The notes beneath the pieces were generated by a model. It did no database searches and had not been told where the DNA came from. It worked only from the letters and a program-made list of their open reading frames with translations. Shown here piece by piece: positions 25,070-58,898 of a stretch of 64,000 nt of DNA. Source of the DNA: an uncultured Roseateles sp. (GTDB taxonomy: Bacteria > Pseudomonadota > Gammaproteobacteria > Burkholderiales > Burkholderiaceae_C). The stretch lies in NCBI RefSeq assembly GCF_945956965.1, contig NZ_CAMFJS010000002.1, positions 62,001 through 126,000 on the forward strand, written 5' to 3'. Numbering within the stretch: position 1 is the stretch's first letter; each line of letters begins with the position of its first letter. A program made the position numbers and the translations under genes.

Positions 25070-25284
25070 TGTGCACAAATATGTGCATAACTTTCGAACA
25101 ACTAGGGGCTTATCCACAGGCGCGGCGAAAGCAGCAAAGTTGTTATCTCTTAGGCTCAAAGTTCAAGGGCATCCGCCCACATGCTTTGTCAGCAGCTAAG
25201 TGATTGCCAGAAAAGGCAAAATAGCGCTTATCCACAGCAAGAGCCAACACCTACTAAGACTACCAACAAAGTATTTAAAGATAC
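25070..25284. other. oriC-like element A (DnaA boxes plus DnaA-trio-like tract)
   Basis: Intergenic between egtD and queD. Perfect DnaA boxes TTATCCACA lie at 25110-25118 and 25228-25236, with TTATGCACA on the minus strand at 25082-25090 and a weaker TTGTGCACA at 25070-25078 (minus). After the last box come a 14-nt spacer (25237-25250), the triplet tract CTACTAAGACTACCAAC (25251-25267) and an AT-rich near-dyad (25271-25284). A DnaA box, spacer and DnaA-trio is the known layout of the bacterial origin unwinding module. Internal blocks TTGTTATC (25140) and CCCACATGCTTTG (25176) recur at the same relative offsets in element B. Whether it fires replication or only binds DnaA to regulate queD cannot be told from sequence. 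Confidence 0.7.
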
Positions 25285-25359
25285 TGTTAAAGACAAGGCG
25301 AAGCTCAAAACTGCTTTTGTTGGCATTGCGTTGCACGCCTGCCCCAAGGAGGGCCAGCC

Positions 25360-25383
25360 ATGTCACACTTGCGTCCCCGATGA
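25360..25383 (+). CDS. Possible 7-residue leader ORF coupled to queD
   Basis: An ATG at 25360 follows a strong AAGGAGGG ribosome site by about 6 nt and reads MSHLRPR before a TGA that overlaps the queD start (ATGA at 25380). QueD itself has no ribosome site at normal spacing, so translation may reach it by reinitiation. The same stretch in element B (GTG at 30948) reads MPHLQP in frame with the MazG-like gene. Confidence 0.45.
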   Translation: MSHLRPR

Positions 25384-26486
25384 AAACCCTGACTATTTTT
25401 TCCGCCTCCTGCGGCTTCGAATCCGCCTGCCAGATCACGGCCTTGCCCGTCGGGCATCGCAGCCATGGTCTGCATGGCCACAGCTATTTCGCTACCGTGC
25501 GTGCCGAATTGCCAGCCGACTGGGCGCCTTTCCCGGGCGGAGAGGTCGAAGAATTGCGCAAGCGTCTGGAGGCCTGCGTTGAACCGCTGGACCACGCGCT
25601 GCTGAATCGCTGCGTGGAAGAGCCTACCGACGAGAACATCGCCCGCTGGATTCGCCAACGCCTGGAAACCGAGTTCGGTGTGCCCGGCATCCAGCAGATC
25701 GGGATTCAAAGCACCCAGCATTCGGGTGTGGATCTGGATGCCAATGGCTCGGCCCATGTCTGGCGCCGTTACCGCTTTCAAGCCGCGCACCAATTGCCCA
25801 ATGTGCCCATGGGCCACAAATGCGGCCGCATGCATGGCCATGGTTTTGAGGTCATCATCCACGCCAACCAAGACCTCGGTGAACGCGCGCTGAGCATCGA
25901 TTACGACCACCTGGACGAGGTCTGGGCGCCCTGGCATATGCTGCTCAACTACCAATGCCTGAACAGCATTGAGGGTTTGCACAATCCAACCAGCGAGGTG
26001 ATCTCGGCCTGGCTGTGGGCGGGTTTGAAGCCGGTGCTGCCCGAGTTGTCCTGGATCACGGTGTACGAAACCGGTTCCTGTGGCGCGAATTTCGACGGCA
26101 CGAACTACCGCATCTGGAAAGAATTGACGCTAGACAGCGCGATTCAGCTCAAGCGAGCGCCCACTGACAGCCCGCTGCGCGGCATCCACGGTCACACCTA
26201 CACCCTGCGCCTGCACCTGAGTGCCCCATTGGACGAGGTGCAAGGCTGGACGGTGGACTTCGGCGATGTGAAGACCTTGTTCGATCCCATCTTCAAGGCC
26301 ATTGATCACCGCCCCCTGTACGAGATTGCCGATCTGCCCGATGGCGACACGGCCAGCCTGGCCGCCTGGGTGCTGGCCAAGGGGGCGGCGGTATTGCCGC
26401 AGATTGACCGGGTCGATATGTACGAAACACGAGGCTGCGGCTCTATCGTCAGCAGCAGCGGTGATGAGGCTTTGATTCCGGTATGA
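25380..26486 (+). CDS. queD: QueD-like 6-carboxytetrahydropterin synthase with three tandem domains
   Basis: Protein of 368 residues containing three PTPS/QueD folds instead of one (about 120 aa). Domain 1 (about 1-115) has HGLHGHSY and LDHALLN but lacks the first zinc His and the catalytic Cys. Domain 2 (about 128-240) has the complete AAHQLPNVPMGHKCGRMHGH (His137, Cys148, His152, His154) and Glu230, but the usual LDH is PWH, losing the Asp. Domain 3 (about 245-358) has IHGHTY, IDHRPLY and MYETRGCG but no Cys. QueD converts dihydroneopterin triphosphate to 6-carboxytetrahydropterin for queuosine. It overlaps queE by 4 nt. The frame stays open upstream to 25200 but resemblance begins at 25380. 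Confidence 0.9.
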   Translation: MKTLTIFSASCGFESACQITALPVGHRSHGLHGHSYFATVRAELPADWAPFPGGEVEELRKRLEACVEPLDHALLNRCVEEPTDENIARWIRQRLETEFGVPGIQQIGIQSTQHSGVDLDANGSAHVWRRYRFQAAHQLPNVPMGHKCGRMHGHGFEVIIHANQDLGERALSIDYDHLDEVWAPWHMLLNYQCLNSIEGLHNPTSEVISAWLWAGLKPVLPELSWITVYETGSCGANFDGTNYRIWKELTLDSAIQLKRAPTDSPLRGIHGHTYTLRLHLSAPLDEVQGWTVDFGDVKTLFDPIFKAIDHRPLYEIADLPDGDTASLAAWVLAKGAAVLPQIDRVDMYETRGCGSIVSSSGDEALIPV

Positions 26487-27118
26487 CTTACGCCGTCAAA
26501 GAAATCTTCTACACCTTGCAAGGCGAGGGCGCGCAGGCCGGCCGGGCTTCGGTGTTCTGCCGCTTTGCCGGCTGCAATCTGTGGAGCGGCCGCGAGCAAG
26601 ACCGCGCCGAGGCGGTTTGCAGCTTCTGCGACACCGATTTTGTGGGCGTGGATGGCCAAGGCGGCGGCAAATTCGCCAGCGCGGCGGATCTTGCCGAGGC
26701 TGTGGCGGCGCAGTGGCCGATCGGCATGCCGGGCAAGCCCTATGTGGTGTGTACCGGCGGCGAGCCGCTGTTGCAACTGGATGCCGAGCTGATCGCTGCC
26801 CTGCATGCCAAAGGCTTCGAGATCGCGGTGGAAACCAATGGCACCCAGCCCGCGCCCGAGGGCCTGGACTGGATTTGTGTCAGCCCTAAAGCTGACGCCG
26901 AAATCGTGCTGACCAAGGGTCACGAGCTCAAGCTGGTTTATCCACAGCCCCTGGCCAAACCGGAACGCTTCGAGTCACTGGACTTCGAGCACTTCTTTTT
27001 GCAGCCGCTGGATTCCATCCTGAAAACCCAGCACACCCGCGAAGCGGTGGCCTATTGCATGAGCCATCCGCAGTGGCGGCTGTCGGTGCAGATGCACAAG
27101 GTCATCGGCATCGAATAA
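26483..27118 (+). CDS. queE: 7-carboxy-7-deazaguanine synthase QueE
   Basis: Radical SAM enzyme of 211 residues that ring-contracts 6-carboxytetrahydropterin to 7-carboxy-7-deazaguanine. The N terminus VKEIFYTLQGEGAQAGRASV is family-typical, and the cluster motif is CX14CX2C (GCNLW ... CSFCDTDFVG), the variant characteristic of QueE. PYVVCTGGEPLLQLD binds SAM. Its start overlaps the queD stop, so the product of QueD is made by the gene next to it. queC and queF are not in the window. A perfect DnaA box (26938-26946) lies inside the gene. Confidence 0.96.
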   Translation: MTYAVKEIFYTLQGEGAQAGRASVFCRFAGCNLWSGREQDRAEAVCSFCDTDFVGVDGQGGGKFASAADLAEAVAAQWPIGMPGKPYVVCTGGEPLLQLDAELIAALHAKGFEIAVETNGTQPAPEGLDWICVSPKADAEIVLTKGHELKLVYPQPLAKPERFESLDFEHFFLQPLDSILKTQHTREAVAYCMSHPQWRLSVQMHKVIGIE

Positions 27119-27120
27119 AT

Positions 27121-27164
27121 CTGACCAATAAGCGCCCCTGATCAGCTCCGGGGCGCTTGGTCAG
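27121..27164. terminator. Strong hairpin between queE and dctA
   Basis: CTGACCA (27121-27127) pairs with TGGTCAG (27158-27164), and AGCGCCCC (27131-27138) with GGGGCGCT (27150-27157), giving one long stem between convergent genes. There is no T-run, but the placement fits a bidirectional terminator. Confidence 0.6.
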
Positions 27165-27171
27165 TCTGGCT

Positions 27172-28497
27172 TCAGTGCGTTTTGGGCAAGTGTGCGTCGA
27201 CCCGGTCGAGCACCACTTCCGGTGCATCGGCTTCCAGCGGGCCTTCGTTATTCAGCTGGCTGTGAAGCCGCGTCATATCCAGGTCACCGGTCCACTTGGC
27301 GACCACCAGGGTGGCCACACCATTGCCAATCAGATTGGTCAGGGCGCGCGCTTCGCTCATGAAGCGGTCAATGCCCAGAATCAGCGCCAGGCCTGCCACT
27401 GGCACACCACCCACGGCGCTGAGCGTGGCCGCCAGCACGATGAAACCACTGCCGGTTACGCCCGCGGCGCCCTTGGAGGTCAGCAACAAGACCGCCAAGA
27501 GGGTCAGTTGTTGCGTCAGCGTCATCGGCGTGTTGGTGGCCTGGGCGATGAAGACGGCGGCCATGGTCAGGTAGATCGACGTGCCATCCAGATTGAAGGA
27601 ATAGCCGGTCGGAATCACCAGGCCCACGGTGGACTTCTTAGCGCCCAGGTTTTCCATCTTGGCCATCATGCGCGGCAACACCGATTCAGACGATGAGGTA
27701 CCCAGCACGATCAACAGCTCTTCCTTGATGTACTTGATGAACTTCCAGATCGAGAAGCCGTGGAAACGCGCGATGGCGCCCAGCACAATGAAAATGAACA
27801 ACAAGCAGGTCAGATAGAAGCTGCCCATCAGCTTGCCCAGCTGCACCAGCGAGCCCAGGCCGTATTTGCCGATGGTGAAGGCCATGGCACCAAAAGCGCC
27901 GATAGGGGCTACCTTCATGATCATGCCGACGATGGCGAAGAGCACATGCGAGGTCTTCTCGATCATGTCGAACACCAGGGTGCCGCGGCCGCCGAACTGG
28001 TGCAGGGCAAAGCCGAACATCACGGCAATCAAGAGCACTTGCAGCATCTCACCCTTGGCAAAAGCATCTACCAGGGTGGTGGGGATGATGGCCAGCAAAA
28101 AGTCTGTGGTGCTGGCCAGTTTTCCGGGGCCGGTGTAGGCGGCGATGCCCTTGGTGTCGAGCGCGGCGGGGTCCACATTCATGCCGGCACCGGGTTGCAG
28201 CACATTGACCACCACCAGGCCAATGACCAGGGCAACGGTGGACACGATCTCGAAGTAAAGCAGGGCCAGGCCACCGGTTTTGCCGACCTTTTTCATGTCC
28301 TCCATGCCGGCAATGCCAACCACCACGGTGCAGAAGATGATGGGGGCGATGATCATCTTGATCAGCTTGATGAAGCCGTCTCCCAAGGGCTTCATGGCAG
28401 CGCCACTCTCGGGGTAGAAGTGACCGAGCAGCACGCCCAAGACGATGGCGGTGATGACTTGGAAATAAAGGGATTTGTATAGCGGTTTGGCGCTCAA
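27172..28497 (-). CDS. dctA: C4-dicarboxylate transporter DctA
   Basis: Sodium- or proton-driven uptake carrier for succinate, fumarate and malate, 441 residues, DAACS family. Conserved parts include [32 protein letters not shown] (the serine-rich hairpin) and [20 protein letters not shown]. The start is a TTG at 28497 with AGGAGA 7 nt upstream, which gives the usual DctA N terminus ([16 protein letters not shown]); an in-frame start at 28578 would add 27 unrelated residues. No dctBD two-component genes are adjacent. Confidence 0.95.
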
Positions 28498-28576
28498 GGC
28501 GGTCTCCTGGCGAATTTGCCCCGATCTTGCTCCCGCTAGGAAGTGGTGCCTATAAGGGGTTTTGCAGACAAGCGGC

Positions 28577-28602
28577 AAAAAAAAGGGAGCCCGCAGGCTC
28601 CC
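28577..28602 (-). terminator. Rho-independent terminator of ompW
   Basis: On the minus strand GGGAGCC and GGCTCCC form a 7-bp stem around a 4-nt loop (28585-28602), followed by eight T residues (28577-28584). It lies 22 nt after the ompW stop. Confidence 0.9.
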
Positions 28603-28623
28603 TAGTCATGCAAGCTGAGCGAA

Positions 28624-29298
28624 TCAGAAGCTATAGACCAGACCCAAGGTGTAAGCCAGGGGATTGAGTTCCACATCGATCTGTTGGCCGGTGGACAAAT
28701 GCCCGCGCGTCTTGACCAGCACCTTGGTCACCGTGGCATCCATGGACAAGCGTTCGCTGAACTTGGCGGTGAAGCCCAGCTGCCCGGTCGGGCCGAAGCG
28801 GTTTTCCATGGTCATGATGGTGGGATTGCTGGGCGAGCCACCGGTCAAGGCCGACAAGGCCGCCGTGCTCTTAGGCTTCATGAAGGCCGCATAGGTAATG
28901 CCGGCGCCCACATAAGGCCGCAAGGTGCTGCTGGGCGAGCCGAAACGGTATTGCGCAGTCAAGGTGACCGGCAAGGCCTGCACATCGGCCAGCTTGCCCG
29001 TGCCCGCAATCGCGCCAGCGCCGCTCACCTCATGCTTGAAGGGTGTGGACAGCGGCAGGTCGATGGCGATGTTGTCGGTCCACATCCAGGTAATGCCGCC
29101 GGCAAGCTGGGTGGTGTTGTTGATGGCAATTTTGGTGCCGGCCAAGCTAGGGGCACTCAGGTCACCGCTGTTCACATCCGGGCGGATAGAGGTCGCGCCG
29201 ATACGCGCCATCCAGGTTCCGGCCGATTGGGCTTGGGCGAATCCGGCCCAGGTGGACAGTGCAGCGGCGGCGATGCAGAGAAGGTTTTTGGTTTTCAT
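28624..29298 (-). CDS. OmpW family outer-membrane protein
   Basis: Small beta-barrel of 224 residues. A signal peptide (LCIAAAALSTWAGFAQAQ) is followed by WMARIGATSIRPD and amphipathic strands ending in the outer-membrane signature LAYTLGLVYSF with terminal Phe. LRPYVGAGITYAAF and IAIDLPLSTPFKHE match OmpW. The ribosome site GGAGAC lies upstream of the start at 29298. OmpW forms an 8-strand channel for small hydrophobic molecules. It has its own terminator, so it is likely monocistronic. Confidence 0.9.
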   Translation of the reverse strand: MKTKNLLCIAAAALSTWAGFAQAQSAGTWMARIGATSIRPDVNSGDLSAPSLAGTKIAINNTTQLAGGITWMWTDNIAIDLPLSTPFKHEVSGAGAIAGTGKLADVQALPVTLTAQYRFGSPSSTLRPYVGAGITYAAFMKPKSTAALSALTGGSPSNPTIMTMENRFGPTGQLGFTAKFSERLSMDATVTKVLVKTRGHLSTGQQIDVELNPLAYTLGLVYSF

Positions 29299-29325
29299 GT
29301 GTGTGTCTCCTGATGCTTGCCGCGT

Positions 29326-30474
29326 TTACAGCCAACCCTTGAGGGCCAAGGTTTTGGAGATCAGCTGACCGGTCAGCTGATGCCCGTAAGGCGTGGGATG
29401 GAAGCCGTCTGAGAAACCATAGCTTTTCCACCAGTCAGCCCCACCGCTGACACCGGCAGGCGGGGCGGCCGACAAGGCCGTGGCGGTGCAGGTGGGGAAG
29501 CTGTAGGTCGGCAAGCCGTCGCTGCCAAGACCGGTGATCGGGCAGGCGGGTGTCTTCACATTGCTCAGGCCAAACTGAGCGGGGGTAGCGACCTGGTCGT
29601 TGAAGGCGGTGTAGAAGTCCACCACGGCGACCTTGGCTTCACCGGCAAACTTGGCTGCGAGTTCCTTGTTGAAAGCTTCAATCCAGCTTTTGAACAAGGC
29701 TTCGGACTGCGCTCTCGCGGTGGCACCGGCCGTGCCGCCGCCATAAGCGGCCGAAATGCCATCCAGCACCATCTGGAAGCGCGGCGTGTTGGTGATGCCG
29801 GGCATATTCAGCACGATGACTTGCTGAGCCCCCTTGTCGAGCACACTGGTCTTGATGGCGGCATAGAAGTTGTCGGCCAGCGCGGTCATATAGACCCCAC
29901 CAATCGTGGCCATGCCAGAGGCACCGCCAGCCAAGGCTGCGCCAACTTGTGCAGGCGTCAAAACCGTCGTCAAGAGGCCGGCAAAGGCCGCTGCCTTATC
30001 GCTAGGCGCCTTCAAATAGGCCCCCACCAGATCGGCTGCGTCATTGCCGCCGCCGTCAATCACAGCCAGATCGCCGGCCGCATAAGTGCCCGCAGCGGCC
30101 ATGGCTGCCATCTGCACTGGGATATTGCGGGGATCTGCCGGGTTGCTGTAGTAATTGATGCGCCCGCCACCGATGGCGGCATTGGTGCAGCCTGCCTTGG
30201 GGTTGGGCACAAAGGAATCGGGGCCGGTTGCTTTGTAGAAGCTGCACAGGGTTTGGCCATAGCTGGCGGCTACGCGCTCGGGAAAGATCCAGTTGTCCGC
30301 GCTTTGCACGGTGAACTTGTAGCCGTAGGTGCCAGAGTCAGCAATGCTGTCCCCGAATACTTTGACGGCTGTGATCTTGAGCTTGGGCGAGGTGTCGGCG
30401 GTGCCGCCACCACCGCAGGCCGACAAAGCCAGGGCGGCCGCCATGGCCAGTGATTTGATTTGGAACCGGTTCAT
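29326..30474 (-). CDS. SGNH/GDSL hydrolase lipoprotein
   Basis: Secreted esterase-like protein of 382 residues with a lipobox (ALALSACGG). Block I is VFGDSIADSGTYG with the nucleophilic Ser, block III is IDGGGNDAADL and block V is SDGFHPTPYGH with the catalytic Asp and His, so the full SGNH set is present. It resembles the phospholipase/lecithinase-type GDSL enzymes. The C terminus has no autotransporter barrel. A GGAGAC ribosome site precedes the ATG at 30474. Substrate unknown. The promoter lies in the AT-rich stretch next to oriC-like element B. Confidence 0.88.
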   Translation of the reverse strand: MNRFQIKSLAMAAALALSACGGGGTADTSPKLKITAVKVFGDSIADSGTYGYKFTVQSADNWIFPERVAASYGQTLCSFYKATGPDSFVPNPKAGCTNAAIGGGRINYYSNPADPRNIPVQMAAMAAAGTYAAGDLAVIDGGGNDAADLVGAYLKAPSDKAAAFAGLLTTVLTPAQVGAALAGGASGMATIGGVYMTALADNFYAAIKTSVLDKGAQQVIVLNMPGITNTPRFQMVLDGISAAYGGGTAGATARAQSEALFKSWIEAFNKELAAKFAGEAKVAVVDFYTAFNDQVATPAQFGLSNVKTPACPITGLGSDGLPTYSFPTCTATALSAAPPAGVSGGADWWKSYGFSDGFHPTPYGHQLTGQLISKTLALKGWL

Positions 30475-30679
30475 TGTTTGTCTCCGTCATGTACGTCAGG
30501 CTGATGCCCGTGAGGAACTCTAGGCAATAGTGCAAGCGCAGGCGCTGCGTGTTTGCCCCCTCCTGTGGCGCAAAAAGGCCTGAATTGCACTGATTTGGGG
30601 ATAAATCCGTAAAAAAAGTCACGCTTACGACGGCGTTTTTTCAAACCTAGCCCAATGGACGGCTGTCAAGGCACAAGTT

Positions 30680-30880
30680 TGTGGATAAAAAAAGGATAGA
30701 GACCCACTTGTCCACAGGCTGTGAGCAAAGTTCAGACTTGTTATCACTTCGCGTGCAAGTTCACCCGACCTCCACCCACATGCTTTGAGGCAAGCTAACT
30801 TCTTGTCAGCAAAGTGGAAATTGCACTTGTCCACAGAAAAGTGGGCCCTCTACTAAGACTACTAATTTCAAATATGAAAT
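30680..30880. other. oriC-like element B (DnaA boxes plus DnaA-trio-like tract)
   Basis: Intergenic between the SGNH hydrolase and the MazG-like gene. It has a perfect DnaA box on the minus strand (30680-30688), TTGTCCACA boxes at 30708-30716 and 30827-30835, a 14-nt spacer (30836-30849), the tract CTACTAAGACTACTAA (30850-30865) and an AT-rich dyad ATTTCAAATATGAAAT (30865-30880). Internal blocks TTGTTATC (30738) and CCCACATGCTTTG (30775) sit 30 and 67 bp after the first plus-strand box, against 30 and 66 bp in element A; the two plus boxes are 119 bp apart against 118 bp. Similarity weakens after the tract but returns as CACACTTGC just before both genes. Confidence 0.7.
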
Positions 30881-30965
30881 CAGAATGAATACAGAGGCTG
30901 AACAAGAATTTTGAGAATGCACACTTTGCTTTTCTGTCCCGCAAGCCGTGCCACACTTGCAACCC

Positions 30966-31280
30966 ATGGACATCGAAGGACTGCAAAAGCGGCTTCGCCA
31001 ATTCGCGCTGGAGCGGCATTGGCAGCCTTATCAAACCCCCAAGAACCTGGCGATGGCCATGGTGGTGGAAGCGGCTGAGCTGGTCGAAATTTTTCAGTGG
31101 ATGACGCCGGAAGAGTCGGCGCAGATCGCGCAAAAGCCTGAGCAACACCAGCATCTGGGTGAAGAGATCGCCGATGTGATGCTTTACCTGCTGCAAATTG
31201 CCGATCACAGCGGCGTTGACGTCGCTGCCGCGGTGGAGCGCAAGCTGGCGCTCAATGCGATCAAGTACCCGGTGGCCTGA
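30966..31280 (+). CDS. MazG-like nucleotide pyrophosphohydrolase
   Basis: All-alpha NTP pyrophosphatase of 104 residues. The metal-binding motifs are EAAELVEIFQWM and EEIADVMLYLLQIAD, and the N terminus MDIEGLQKRLRQFALERHW with PKNLAMAM is typical of the RS21-C6/MazG-like dCTPase group that cleans the nucleotide pool. A GTG at 30948 (MPHLQP) is in frame, but family similarity starts at MDIEGL. It is the first gene right of oriC-like element B and is followed after 31 nt by a DnaQ-like exonuclease. Confidence 0.88.
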   Translation: MDIEGLQKRLRQFALERHWQPYQTPKNLAMAMVVEAAELVEIFQWMTPEESAQIAQKPEQHQHLGEEIADVMLYLLQIADHSGVDVAAAVERKLALNAIKYPVA

Positions 31281-56939: not shown

Positions 56940-58898
56940 TCAGGCGGCTGTTTCGGTAAAGCCTGCAAAGCGCTTTTTCTTCAGATAGACCAGCAGCAGG
57001 GAAATGGTGGCCGGCGTGACGCCGGAGATGCGCGAGGCCTGGCCCAAGGTCTCGGGCTGATGCTTGCCCAGCTTCTGGCGCGCCTCGAAGGAGAGTGCGG
57101 TGACCTGGGAATAGTCCAGCTCAGGCGGCAGGCGCAGGTTCTCGTAGTGCGAGGCACGGGCCACGTCTTCGGTCTGCTTGTTGATGTAACCGGCGTATTT
57201 GACGGTGGTTTCGATCTGCTCGATCACCGCGTCGGCCATGGTCTTGCCCAAGTCGGCGTTGAGTGTTTCACGTGAAACAGCGGACTCCGGGCGGGCAATT
57301 GCCGCCACTTCTGCCACCGTGTCGTAGACCACGCCGGGACGGCGCAGCAGATCGATCAGGTTGTATTCGCGCTCCAGCGCTTTGCCGACCAGCCGCTCCG
57401 CATCGGCGGCGAGCAGGATGTTGGGGTGCACCCAGGTGGATTTGAGCTTTTCTGTTTCACGTGAAACAGCGTCGCGCTTGCGGTTGAAGGACGTCCAGCG
57501 GGCGTCGTCCACCAAGCCCAGTTCGCGGCCCATTTCGGTCAGGCGCATATCGGCGTTGTCTTCACGCAGCTGCAGGCGGAACTCGGCCCGGCTGGTGAAC
57601 ATGCGATAGGGCTCGGTCACGCCCTTGGTGATCAGGTCGTCTACCAAGACGCCCAGATAGGCTTGGTCGCGGCCGGGCAACCAGCTGTCGCGGCCCTGGA
57701 CTTGCAAGGCTGCATTCAGGCCAGCGAACAAGCCTTGGGCGGCGGCTTCTTCGTAGCCGGTCGTGCCATTGATCTGGCCAGCGAAGAACAGGCAGCGGAT
57801 GGCACGGGTTTCAAAGGAAGACTTCAGCTCGCGCGGGTCGAAGTAGTCGTACTCGATGGCATAGCCGGGGCGCAGGATGTGGGCATTCTCCAGGCCGGGG
57901 ATGGAGCGCACGGCGGCCAGCTGAATGTCGAAGGGCAGGGAGGTGGAGATGCCGTTGGGGTAGTACTCGTGGGTTGTCAGGCCCTCGGGCTCCAGAAAGA
58001 TCTGGTGGCTGTCCTTGTCGGCAAAGCGGTTCACCTTGTCTTCGATGCTGGGGCAATAGCGCGGGCCCACGCCTTCGATGACGCCGGTGAACATGGGGCT
58101 GCGGTCAAAGCCGGAGCGAATGATTTCGTGGGTGCGGGCCGAGGTGTGGGTGATCCAGCACGGCACTTGGCGCGGGTGCTGATCGGCCGAGCCCATGAAG
58201 CTGAACACCGGCAGCGGGTTCAGGTCGCCACCTTGCTCTTCGCACTTGGAGAAGTCGATGCTGCGGCCATCGATGCGAGGCGGTGTGCCGGTCTTCAGGC
58301 GGCCTTGCGGCAGCTTCAATTCCTTCAGCCGAGCCGAAAGGCTGATGGCTGGCGGATCACCGGCGCGGCCAGCTTGGTAGTTTTCCAGGCCGACGTGGAT
58401 GCGGCCGTCGAGAAAGGTGCCGGCGGTCAGCACCACCGCGCGGGCGCGGAACTGCAAACCCATCTGCGTGACGGCGCCAACGACGCGTTCGCTCACGCCG
58501 TCCGACTCCACCATCAAATCATCCACCGCTTGCTGGAACAGCCACAAATTGGGCTGGTTCTCCAGGCGGTGGCGGATGGCGGCCTTGTACAAGACGCGGT
58601 CGGCTTGGGCGCGGGTGGCGCGCACGGCCGGACCCTTGGAGCCGTTGAGGATGCGGAACTGGATGCCGCTCTCGTCGGTGGCCGCGGCCATCGCGCCGCC
58701 CAGGGCATCCACCTCTTTGACCAGATGGCCCTTGCCGATGCCACCGATCGAGGGGTTGCAGCTCATCTGCCCCAGGGTCTCGATGTTGTGGGTCAACAGC
58801 AGCGTGGCGCAGCCCATGCGGGCGGCAGCCAGGGCAGCCTCGGTGCCGGCATGTCCGCCGCCGACGACGATGACGTCGAATTCCTTGGGGTAAAGCAT
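56940..58898 (-). CDS. mnmG: tRNA uridine-5-carboxymethylaminomethyl modification enzyme MnmG (GidA)
   Basis: FAD enzyme of 652 residues that, with MnmE, builds the 5-carboxymethylaminomethyl group on U34 of tRNAs. The FAD site is [19 protein letters not shown] and the [18 protein letters not shown] block is diagnostic; the C terminus has the family coiled-coil region ending [20 protein letters not shown]. Two perfect parS sites lie in its coding sequence. It is the first gene of the mnmG-rsmG-parA run. Confidence 0.97.
57264..57279. promoter_or_regulatory. parS: parS site 2 (perfect), inside mnmG
   Basis: TGTTTCACGTGAAACA, exact consensus. In the mnmG frame it encodes V-S-R-E-T. Confidence 0.95.
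57453..57468. promoter_or_regulatory. parS: parS site 3 (perfect), inside mnmG
   Basis: A second exact TGTTTCACGTGAAACA, 189 bp from site 2 and in the same frame, again coding V-S-R-E-T. Confidence 0.95.

Follow-up and report, generated by a model that had tools for sequence, protein, structure and literature searches.

An uncultured Roseateles sp. of the Burkholderiales carries two intergenic regions, here called A and B, that resemble bacterial replication origins and lie 5.6 kb apart within a stretch of 64,000 nucleotides (the window, positions 62001-126000 of the 352-kb contig C2 in the 64-contig genome G000). It is likely, in our judgement, that the origin module of the family is present here as two complete paralogs, A and B, and that the chromosome origin lies at this place, at a distance of 67 kb from dnaA. 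We read the pair as a split twin oriC in which B is the primary copy and A is complete but weaker. An earlier note, made from the letters of the window alone, had left a choice between a split origin, a duplicated origin and DnaA-binding decoys. The GC skew, the related genomes and the presence of the module beside dnaA in some of them favour a duplicated and now split origin, whereas pure decoys are unlikely, since the DnaA-trio and the AT-rich parts are retained.

Anatomy of the two copies

Copy A spans 25082-25283 of the window and copy B 30679-30884, both in the same orientation and with one common layout: a DnaA box, 118 or 119 bp, a second box, 14 nt, a DnaA-trio and AT-rich DNA. The plus-strand boxes start at 25110 and 25228 in A, 118 bp apart, and at 30708 and 30827 in B, 119 bp apart. 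Both boxes of A read TTATCCACA (25110-25118 and 25228-25236, the second adjoining the unwinding part) and both of B read TTGTCCACA (30708-30716 and 30827-30835). Two further plus-strand elements stand between the boxes. TTGTTATC, for which the family consensus is AAGTTGTT, sits 30 bp past the first box in either copy (25140-25147 in A, 30738-30745 in B) and is possibly a weak DnaA site; CCCACATGCTTTG, with a central CCACA, is offset from the first box by 66 bp in A (25176-25188) and by 67 bp in B (30775-30787). Ahead of box 1 by 28 bp, B has a perfect inverted DnaA box on the minus strand (30680-30688), and the inverted box of A is the degenerate TTATGCACA (25082-25090, minus strand).

The last box is followed by a plus-strand spacer of exactly 14 nt (25237-25250 in A, 30836-30849 in B) and then by CTACTAAGACTA, at 25251 in A and 30850 in B, where the plus-strand DnaA-trio begins: CTA CTA AGA CTA CCA in A (25251-25265) and CTA CTA AGA CTA CTA in B (30850-30864). 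Three of the five trio steps end in TA in A and four of the five in B, and each copy has the box, spacer and trio of a basal unwinding system (BUS). The 50 nt past the trio form a candidate DNA unwinding element with 66% AT in A (25266-25315) and 72% AT in B (30865-30914), in a sequence of 63% GC where only 0.19% of the 50-nt segments of the window reach 66% AT and 0.03% reach 70%. The spacings of boxes, TTGTTATC, CCCACATGCTTTG and trio are those that the earlier note had read, and all were reproduced.

The layout could have lost its meaning by recurring ahead of many unrelated genes, a possibility that the earlier note had raised against its own proposal; just two sites were found in the genome. 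A pattern of box, 109-111 nt, box, 14 nt and CTACTA matches twice in the 352-kb contig, with no match in 40 first-order Markov copies of that contig or in the contig reversed, and CCCACATGCTTTG occurs in the whole 4.96-Mb genome at A and B only. The module model R1, whose training set includes the sequences of both A and B, gives two matches in the whole genome at E up to 0.001, namely A (118.4 bits, E 4.3e-34) and B (116.8 bits, E 1.4e-33). The densest 300-bp clusters of DnaA boxes on the contig, at up to one mismatch, are again B with four boxes and A with three.

Position in the chromosome

The position of the pair in the chromosome strongly indicates that the replication origin of this genus lies at A/B. 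The sole dnaA match of G000 is at about C2:20.1 kb and A is at C2:87 kb, which agrees with the absence of dnaA beside the copies in the earlier note; the distance of 67 kb compares with 96 kb from dnaA to A in the complete congener G008. The dnaA-bearing part of C2, its first 40 kb (loci L004 and L005), yielded no module at E up to 0.01. Two perfect palindromes TGTTTCACGTGAAACA (57264-57279 and 57453-57468), called parS-like after a consensus that we take to be that of parS, provide context for an origin-proximal region; B is about 26 kb and A about 32 kb away, as the earlier note had put it.

Its proposal to look for the skew minimum led to the pair in both genomes. On contig C2 the cumulative GC skew is lowest at 88365, with A to the left (87110) and B to the right (92827). 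Twenty sampled windows of G008 place the skew minimum in a single region at 4.17-4.43 Mb, where the sign turns from negative to positive, and the maximum in a single region at 1.8-2.1 Mb; at finer resolution the minimum is at 4,324,873, within the A-B interval and 0.6 kb right of A. The FtsK-orienting polar sequences (KOPS), with the octamer given in the excerpted text of PMC4948915 (the other papers cited below, PMC4403523 apart, are likewise represented by excerpts), support this location in part. Right of B they point forward in 14 of 14 cases over 87 kb of G000 and in 18 of 20 in G008, and in the related genome G024, where B ends at 1608.3 kb, eight reversed KOPS in a row (the last at 1609 kb) are followed by sixteen forward ones in a row (from 1611 kb).

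The pair in the genus

The model matched every one of the 18 genus genomes, among them that of the window, with two modules in 13 and one in five. Among the named genomes with the pair are Roseateles subflavus APW6, R. aquatilis, R. noduli HZ7, Mitsuaria sp. WAJ17 and PDC51 and Pelomonas sp. KK5. The spacing of 118 bp in A, that of 119 bp in B and the 14-nt gap are unchanged in all 13 pairs, and copies that share a contig are 2 to 7.3 kb apart. The comparison with relatives that the earlier note had called for is thus in its favour, with both copies in 13 of the 18 genomes and the module beside dnaA in four genomes of the family.

The two copies differ in their apparent strength. B outscores A in 11 of the 13 pairs, with means of 121.5 and 112.6 bits (Wilcoxon p 0.002, for related genomes and a model trained on the same sequences); the exceptions are the window's own genome and its nearest relative. 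All 13 copies of B have a perfect inverted box, against one of the 13 copies of A, the boxes of A more commonly show TTG or TTACC variants than those of B, and the trio of A is more variable. These features make B the probable main site of initiation. Opening of A probably takes more DnaA-ATP, or happens less frequently, because its boxes are weaker, it has no good inverted box and its trio is more variable in most congeners. The identity of A copies to one another averages 62% across 12 genomes. Outside the genus the A-side copy has the higher score in six of 13 resembling two-module loci, a set from which two duplicate records were dropped and whose flanking genes were not checked in each case.

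The module across the family

A consensus built from 102 modules runs from an inverted box CTGTGGATAA through a box CTTATCCACAG, AAGTTGTT, CCACAnGCTTT and CAAGTnCTTG to a box CTTGTCCACAG, followed by CTACTACTACTACTA and AT-rich DNA, the whole being about 205 bp long. When this sequence-only model was run against 200 family genomes of at least 95% completeness, 197 matched: 129 with one match, 60 with two and eight with three, leaving three with none, so that two or three modules are present in 68 of the 200. These copy counts rest on the model, which found more than a regular-expression finder that undercounts second copies. Three modules each were seen in G020, G021 and G160, and in G160 two of them are 0.27 kb apart with the third 3.3 kb off.

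The module adjoins dnaA in four complete family genomes, G120, G161, G169 and G292, although in G161 and G292 the record is a single contig that was treated as circular, with the adjacency running over its ends. In the 33 genomes whose module shares a contig with dnaA, the two adjoin in these four, are 8 kb apart in one and 27-597 kb apart in 28. Because the module adjoins dnaA in four genomes and fits the case of Cupriavidus metallidurans described below, one module is very probably the oriC of the family.

Distances and orientations of neighbouring copies were taken from 150 listed rows of the survey, where weaker second copies are missing. Of the 39 neighbouring pairs listed there, 36 have one orientation, and 38 are 0.29-10.2 kb apart, the remaining one being 46 kb apart. 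Modules in opposite orientation are G201:C1:48947 and 95371 (46 kb apart), G084:C55:68804 and 72875 (convergent, 4 kb) and G198:C1:2591195 and 2591485 (divergent, 0.3 kb).

In a tree of modules, 16 B copies group together (SH-aLRT 95), 14 of them from genus genomes and two from unplaced records of metagenome-assembled genomes (MAGs). The A copies of the genus belong to a group of 20 rows with a support of 89, which also takes in A copies from further genera, a single B row and an unlabelled one; other lineages hold paralogous sets of their own. Because of these groupings the duplication is probably older than the genus, and it may have occurred more than once.

Related modules, perhaps in tandem, may reach beyond the family. 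The exact pattern was found in six of seven same-family genomes of the order and in three of 243 others, and in these others a reversed control matched more often. The model gives weak matches (20-55 bits) in 37 of 116 genomes of other families, and seven of these 37 have two or three weak matches within about 1.6 kb, as if tandem modules had preceded the split twin state. Tandem-like examples at the level of the order are G366:C1:1853643-1855247, G041:C1:5138115-5138673, G403:C77:3834-4246 and G338:C9:74940-75316.

A further lead concerns methylation. A G follows DnaA box 1 in 95 of 100 modules and completes CACAG (window 25110-25119), which is described as a methylated motif at DnaA-box ends in Burkholderia cenocepacia (PMC7364216); a link between box 1 and this methylation may be worth following.

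Evidence against the pair as origin

Several observations weigh against this reading. Five of the 18 genus genomes show one module, for which reason A may be dispensable, although two of the five are less than 80% complete and the module of G016 lies at a contig end. The skew minimum, 0.6-1.1 kb right of A, is closer to A although B is the stronger copy, and in G024 the lowest cumulative skew within 160 kb is reached 61 kb to the left of A. Left of A the KOPS are mixed and mainly forward over 87-144 kb (8 of 12 in G000, 15 of 23 in G008), and in G008 they are reversed only further left, with 2 forward and 24 reversed in the sampled left arm.

More distant genomes add to these difficulties. The six sampled skew windows of G300 are all positive, and its KOPS point mainly forward to the left (12 of 14) as well as to the right (8 of 13), with no change at the pair. 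The change of skew sign at the pair of G229 is weak; on the right-hand side its skew is weak and mixed, with 5 of 12 KOPS forward. The skew of G265 changes sign at the pair, with one of its three right-hand windows negative (one contrary window of six). A pair that marks the origin across the whole family is supported by the dnaA-adjacent cases, but by neither skew nor KOPS in G300.

The stretch that surrounds dnaA and extends to A has weak GC skew and mixed KOPS (G000 C2:1-87000; G008:C1:4180000-4324000). An inversion long ago, or a shift of the origin, might be the cause.

Genes around and between the copies

Five genes lie between the copies. A plus-strand gene of the PTPS family (queD-like, 25380..26486, Pfam PF01242) adjoins A and is followed by a plus-strand radical SAM gene (26483..27118, PF04055), queE-like by the name that the earlier note gave it. 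On the minus strand come a dicarboxylate symporter gene (dctA-like, 27172..28500, PF00375), an OmpW-family gene (28624..29298, PF03922) and a GDSL/SGNH hydrolase gene (29326..30474, PF00657). A mazG-like gene on the plus strand (30966..31280, PF12643) adjoins B.

In the genus loci examined, A precedes the queD-like gene and B the mazG-like gene, and the dctA, ompW and SGNH genes are variable, with no match to them at E 1e-8 in several congener loci. Outside the window, the identity of queD is 75-99% in 18 further loci. To ask which copy is used more, skew was measured at the fourfold sites of the intervening genes, where the signal is dominated by gene strand. A perfect DnaA box lies within queE (window 26938-26946), in the same place in G008 and G004, and is probably a by-product of conserved coding sequence.

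Neither a queD nor a mazG gene was detected in 17 module loci of other lineages, and no module was found within 10 kb of queE in the loci L193, L198, L199, L201, L210, L211, L252, L255 and L257, which come from Pelomonas aquatica, Ideonella, Sphaerotilus, Azohydromonas, Cupriavidus and a MAG. One module is present in the queE locus L189, also of a MAG.

How the pair may work

From the sequence we infer DnaA binding and unwinding at each copy and a division of labour between a strong B and a weak A; retention and anatomy suggest that both copies act. In each copy DnaA would bind the inverted box, the strong first box, the weaker internal sites and the second box, with the array filled from the left. 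The DnaA filament would then extend over the 14-nt spacer onto the strand of the DnaA-trio, the AT-rich DNA to the right would be opened and helicase would be loaded there. If both copies were to open, converging forks would merge within 5.6 kb, so that the pair would behave as one initiation zone. The variable distance between copies speaks against a fixed loop; their common orientation and constant internal geometry speak for a function of each unit.

SeqA had no match in 20 genomes (the window's own, 11 congeners and eight others of the order), and an E. coli control was positive, for which reason the control of re-initiation probably differs from that of E. coli. We tentatively speculate, with rather less confidence than in the location of the origin, that a natural chromosome here has two full origins that are both able to fire. 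In this proposal an oriC module would have been duplicated, genes would afterwards have been inserted between the copies, and the twin state would have persisted in many genera of the family; the strong and weak members of the pair may time initiation without SeqA.

Alternative explanations

The pair could instead be a bipartite origin of the kind known from Helicobacter pylori and Bacillus subtilis, where one copy (probably B) would be unwound and the other would serve as a DnaA-loaded looping partner that tunes initiation. Origins with one unwinding half are described (PMC8235120, PMC6669920), 36 of the 39 listed pairs share an orientation, and within the genus A falls short of B in strength and varies more, all of which would fit. 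We nevertheless regard it as unlikely, since the trio, the 14-nt gap and the AT-rich stretch are found in both copies and the known bipartite origins carry their unwinding element in one half. Distances of 0.29-10.2 kb in 38 of the 39 listed pairs imply that no fixed loop length is needed, and the higher score of the A-side copy in six of the 13 loci outside the genus means that neither copy is always weak.

Rather less probable still is that one copy is the origin and the other a relic, or a site that titrates or reactivates DnaA in the manner of datA or DARS. The imperfect inverted box of A in 12 of 13 genomes, its weaker boxes and the G014 locus, where B is present and no A was found, would fit this; yet the spacing and the gap of A are constant in 13 of 13 genomes despite the mean A-A identity of 62%, and 68 of the 200 family genomes have two modules or three. 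The datA and DARS sites have DnaA boxes without an unwinding part, whereas A and B both carry one by their sequence, and the trio and AT-rich stretch retained in A are needless for titration. A gene starts shortly downstream of each copy, and for this reason one might take A and B for DnaA-regulated promoters of queD and mazG that merely resemble origins. Such a view is hardly credible given that the module adjoins dnaA in four genomes, that the skew minimum lies at A/B and that queD and mazG went undetected in the 17 module loci of other lineages.

Significance

One origin per bacterial chromosome is the norm, and by 2015 there was no evidence of two functional ones used together (Gao 2015, PMC4403523). 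Here a complete origin module is duplicated, lies apart from dnaA and has persisted over long evolutionary times, and the bacteria that carry it have cultured relatives in Roseateles, Paucibacter and Mitsuaria. The A/B pair makes the firing of a second origin, and the coordination of two origins, directly testable. The module model can also serve as a finder of candidate origins, given its matches in 197 of 200 sampled genomes, for a large family where origins can be hard to place; the exact origin of chromosome 1 of B. cenocepacia, for instance, is called unclear in the excerpted text of PMC4948915.

Comparison with known systems

No twin or duplicated oriC for Burkholderiales, and no twin complete modules, were found described in the open-licence papers searched. 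The putative double origins in DoriC include that of Ralstonia pickettii 12D (Gao 2015, PMC4403523), and those of A. fermentans and M. bovis BCG Pasteur accompany duplicated dnaA regions (PMC4403523). The DoriC pairs mostly sit at different genes and lie 150 to 882 kb apart, or are copies of a whole dnaA cluster, and none is presented as two copies of a small module without dnaA. Pseudomonas aeruginosa has two origins, of which only one is essential in the laboratory (PMC4403523).

The bipartite oriC of H. pylori and B. subtilis likewise has two nearby clusters of DnaA boxes at the chromosome origin. Its halves flank dnaA, as far as the excerpts of PMC8235120 and PMC6669920 describe them, whereas dnaA is 67 kb off here; its unwinding element is in one half, whereas by sequence the trio and AT-rich DNA are in both copies of the pair. 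A closer parallel is chromosome 1 of C. metallidurans CH34, where the GC-skew transition lies about 90 kb from dnaA and is preceded by 213 nt with three perfect DnaA boxes (PMC2864759). Judged from that description, this origin region fits one copy of the module, with a single cluster described there and two here.

The BUS itself shares with each copy the order of box, spacer, trio and AT-rich DNA (PMC6669920; survey in PMC8287927). The commonest spacer of the survey is 13, close to the 14 found here. The survey program, in the excerpted account, names one candidate per genome in almost all cases, whereas here the whole unit is present twice.

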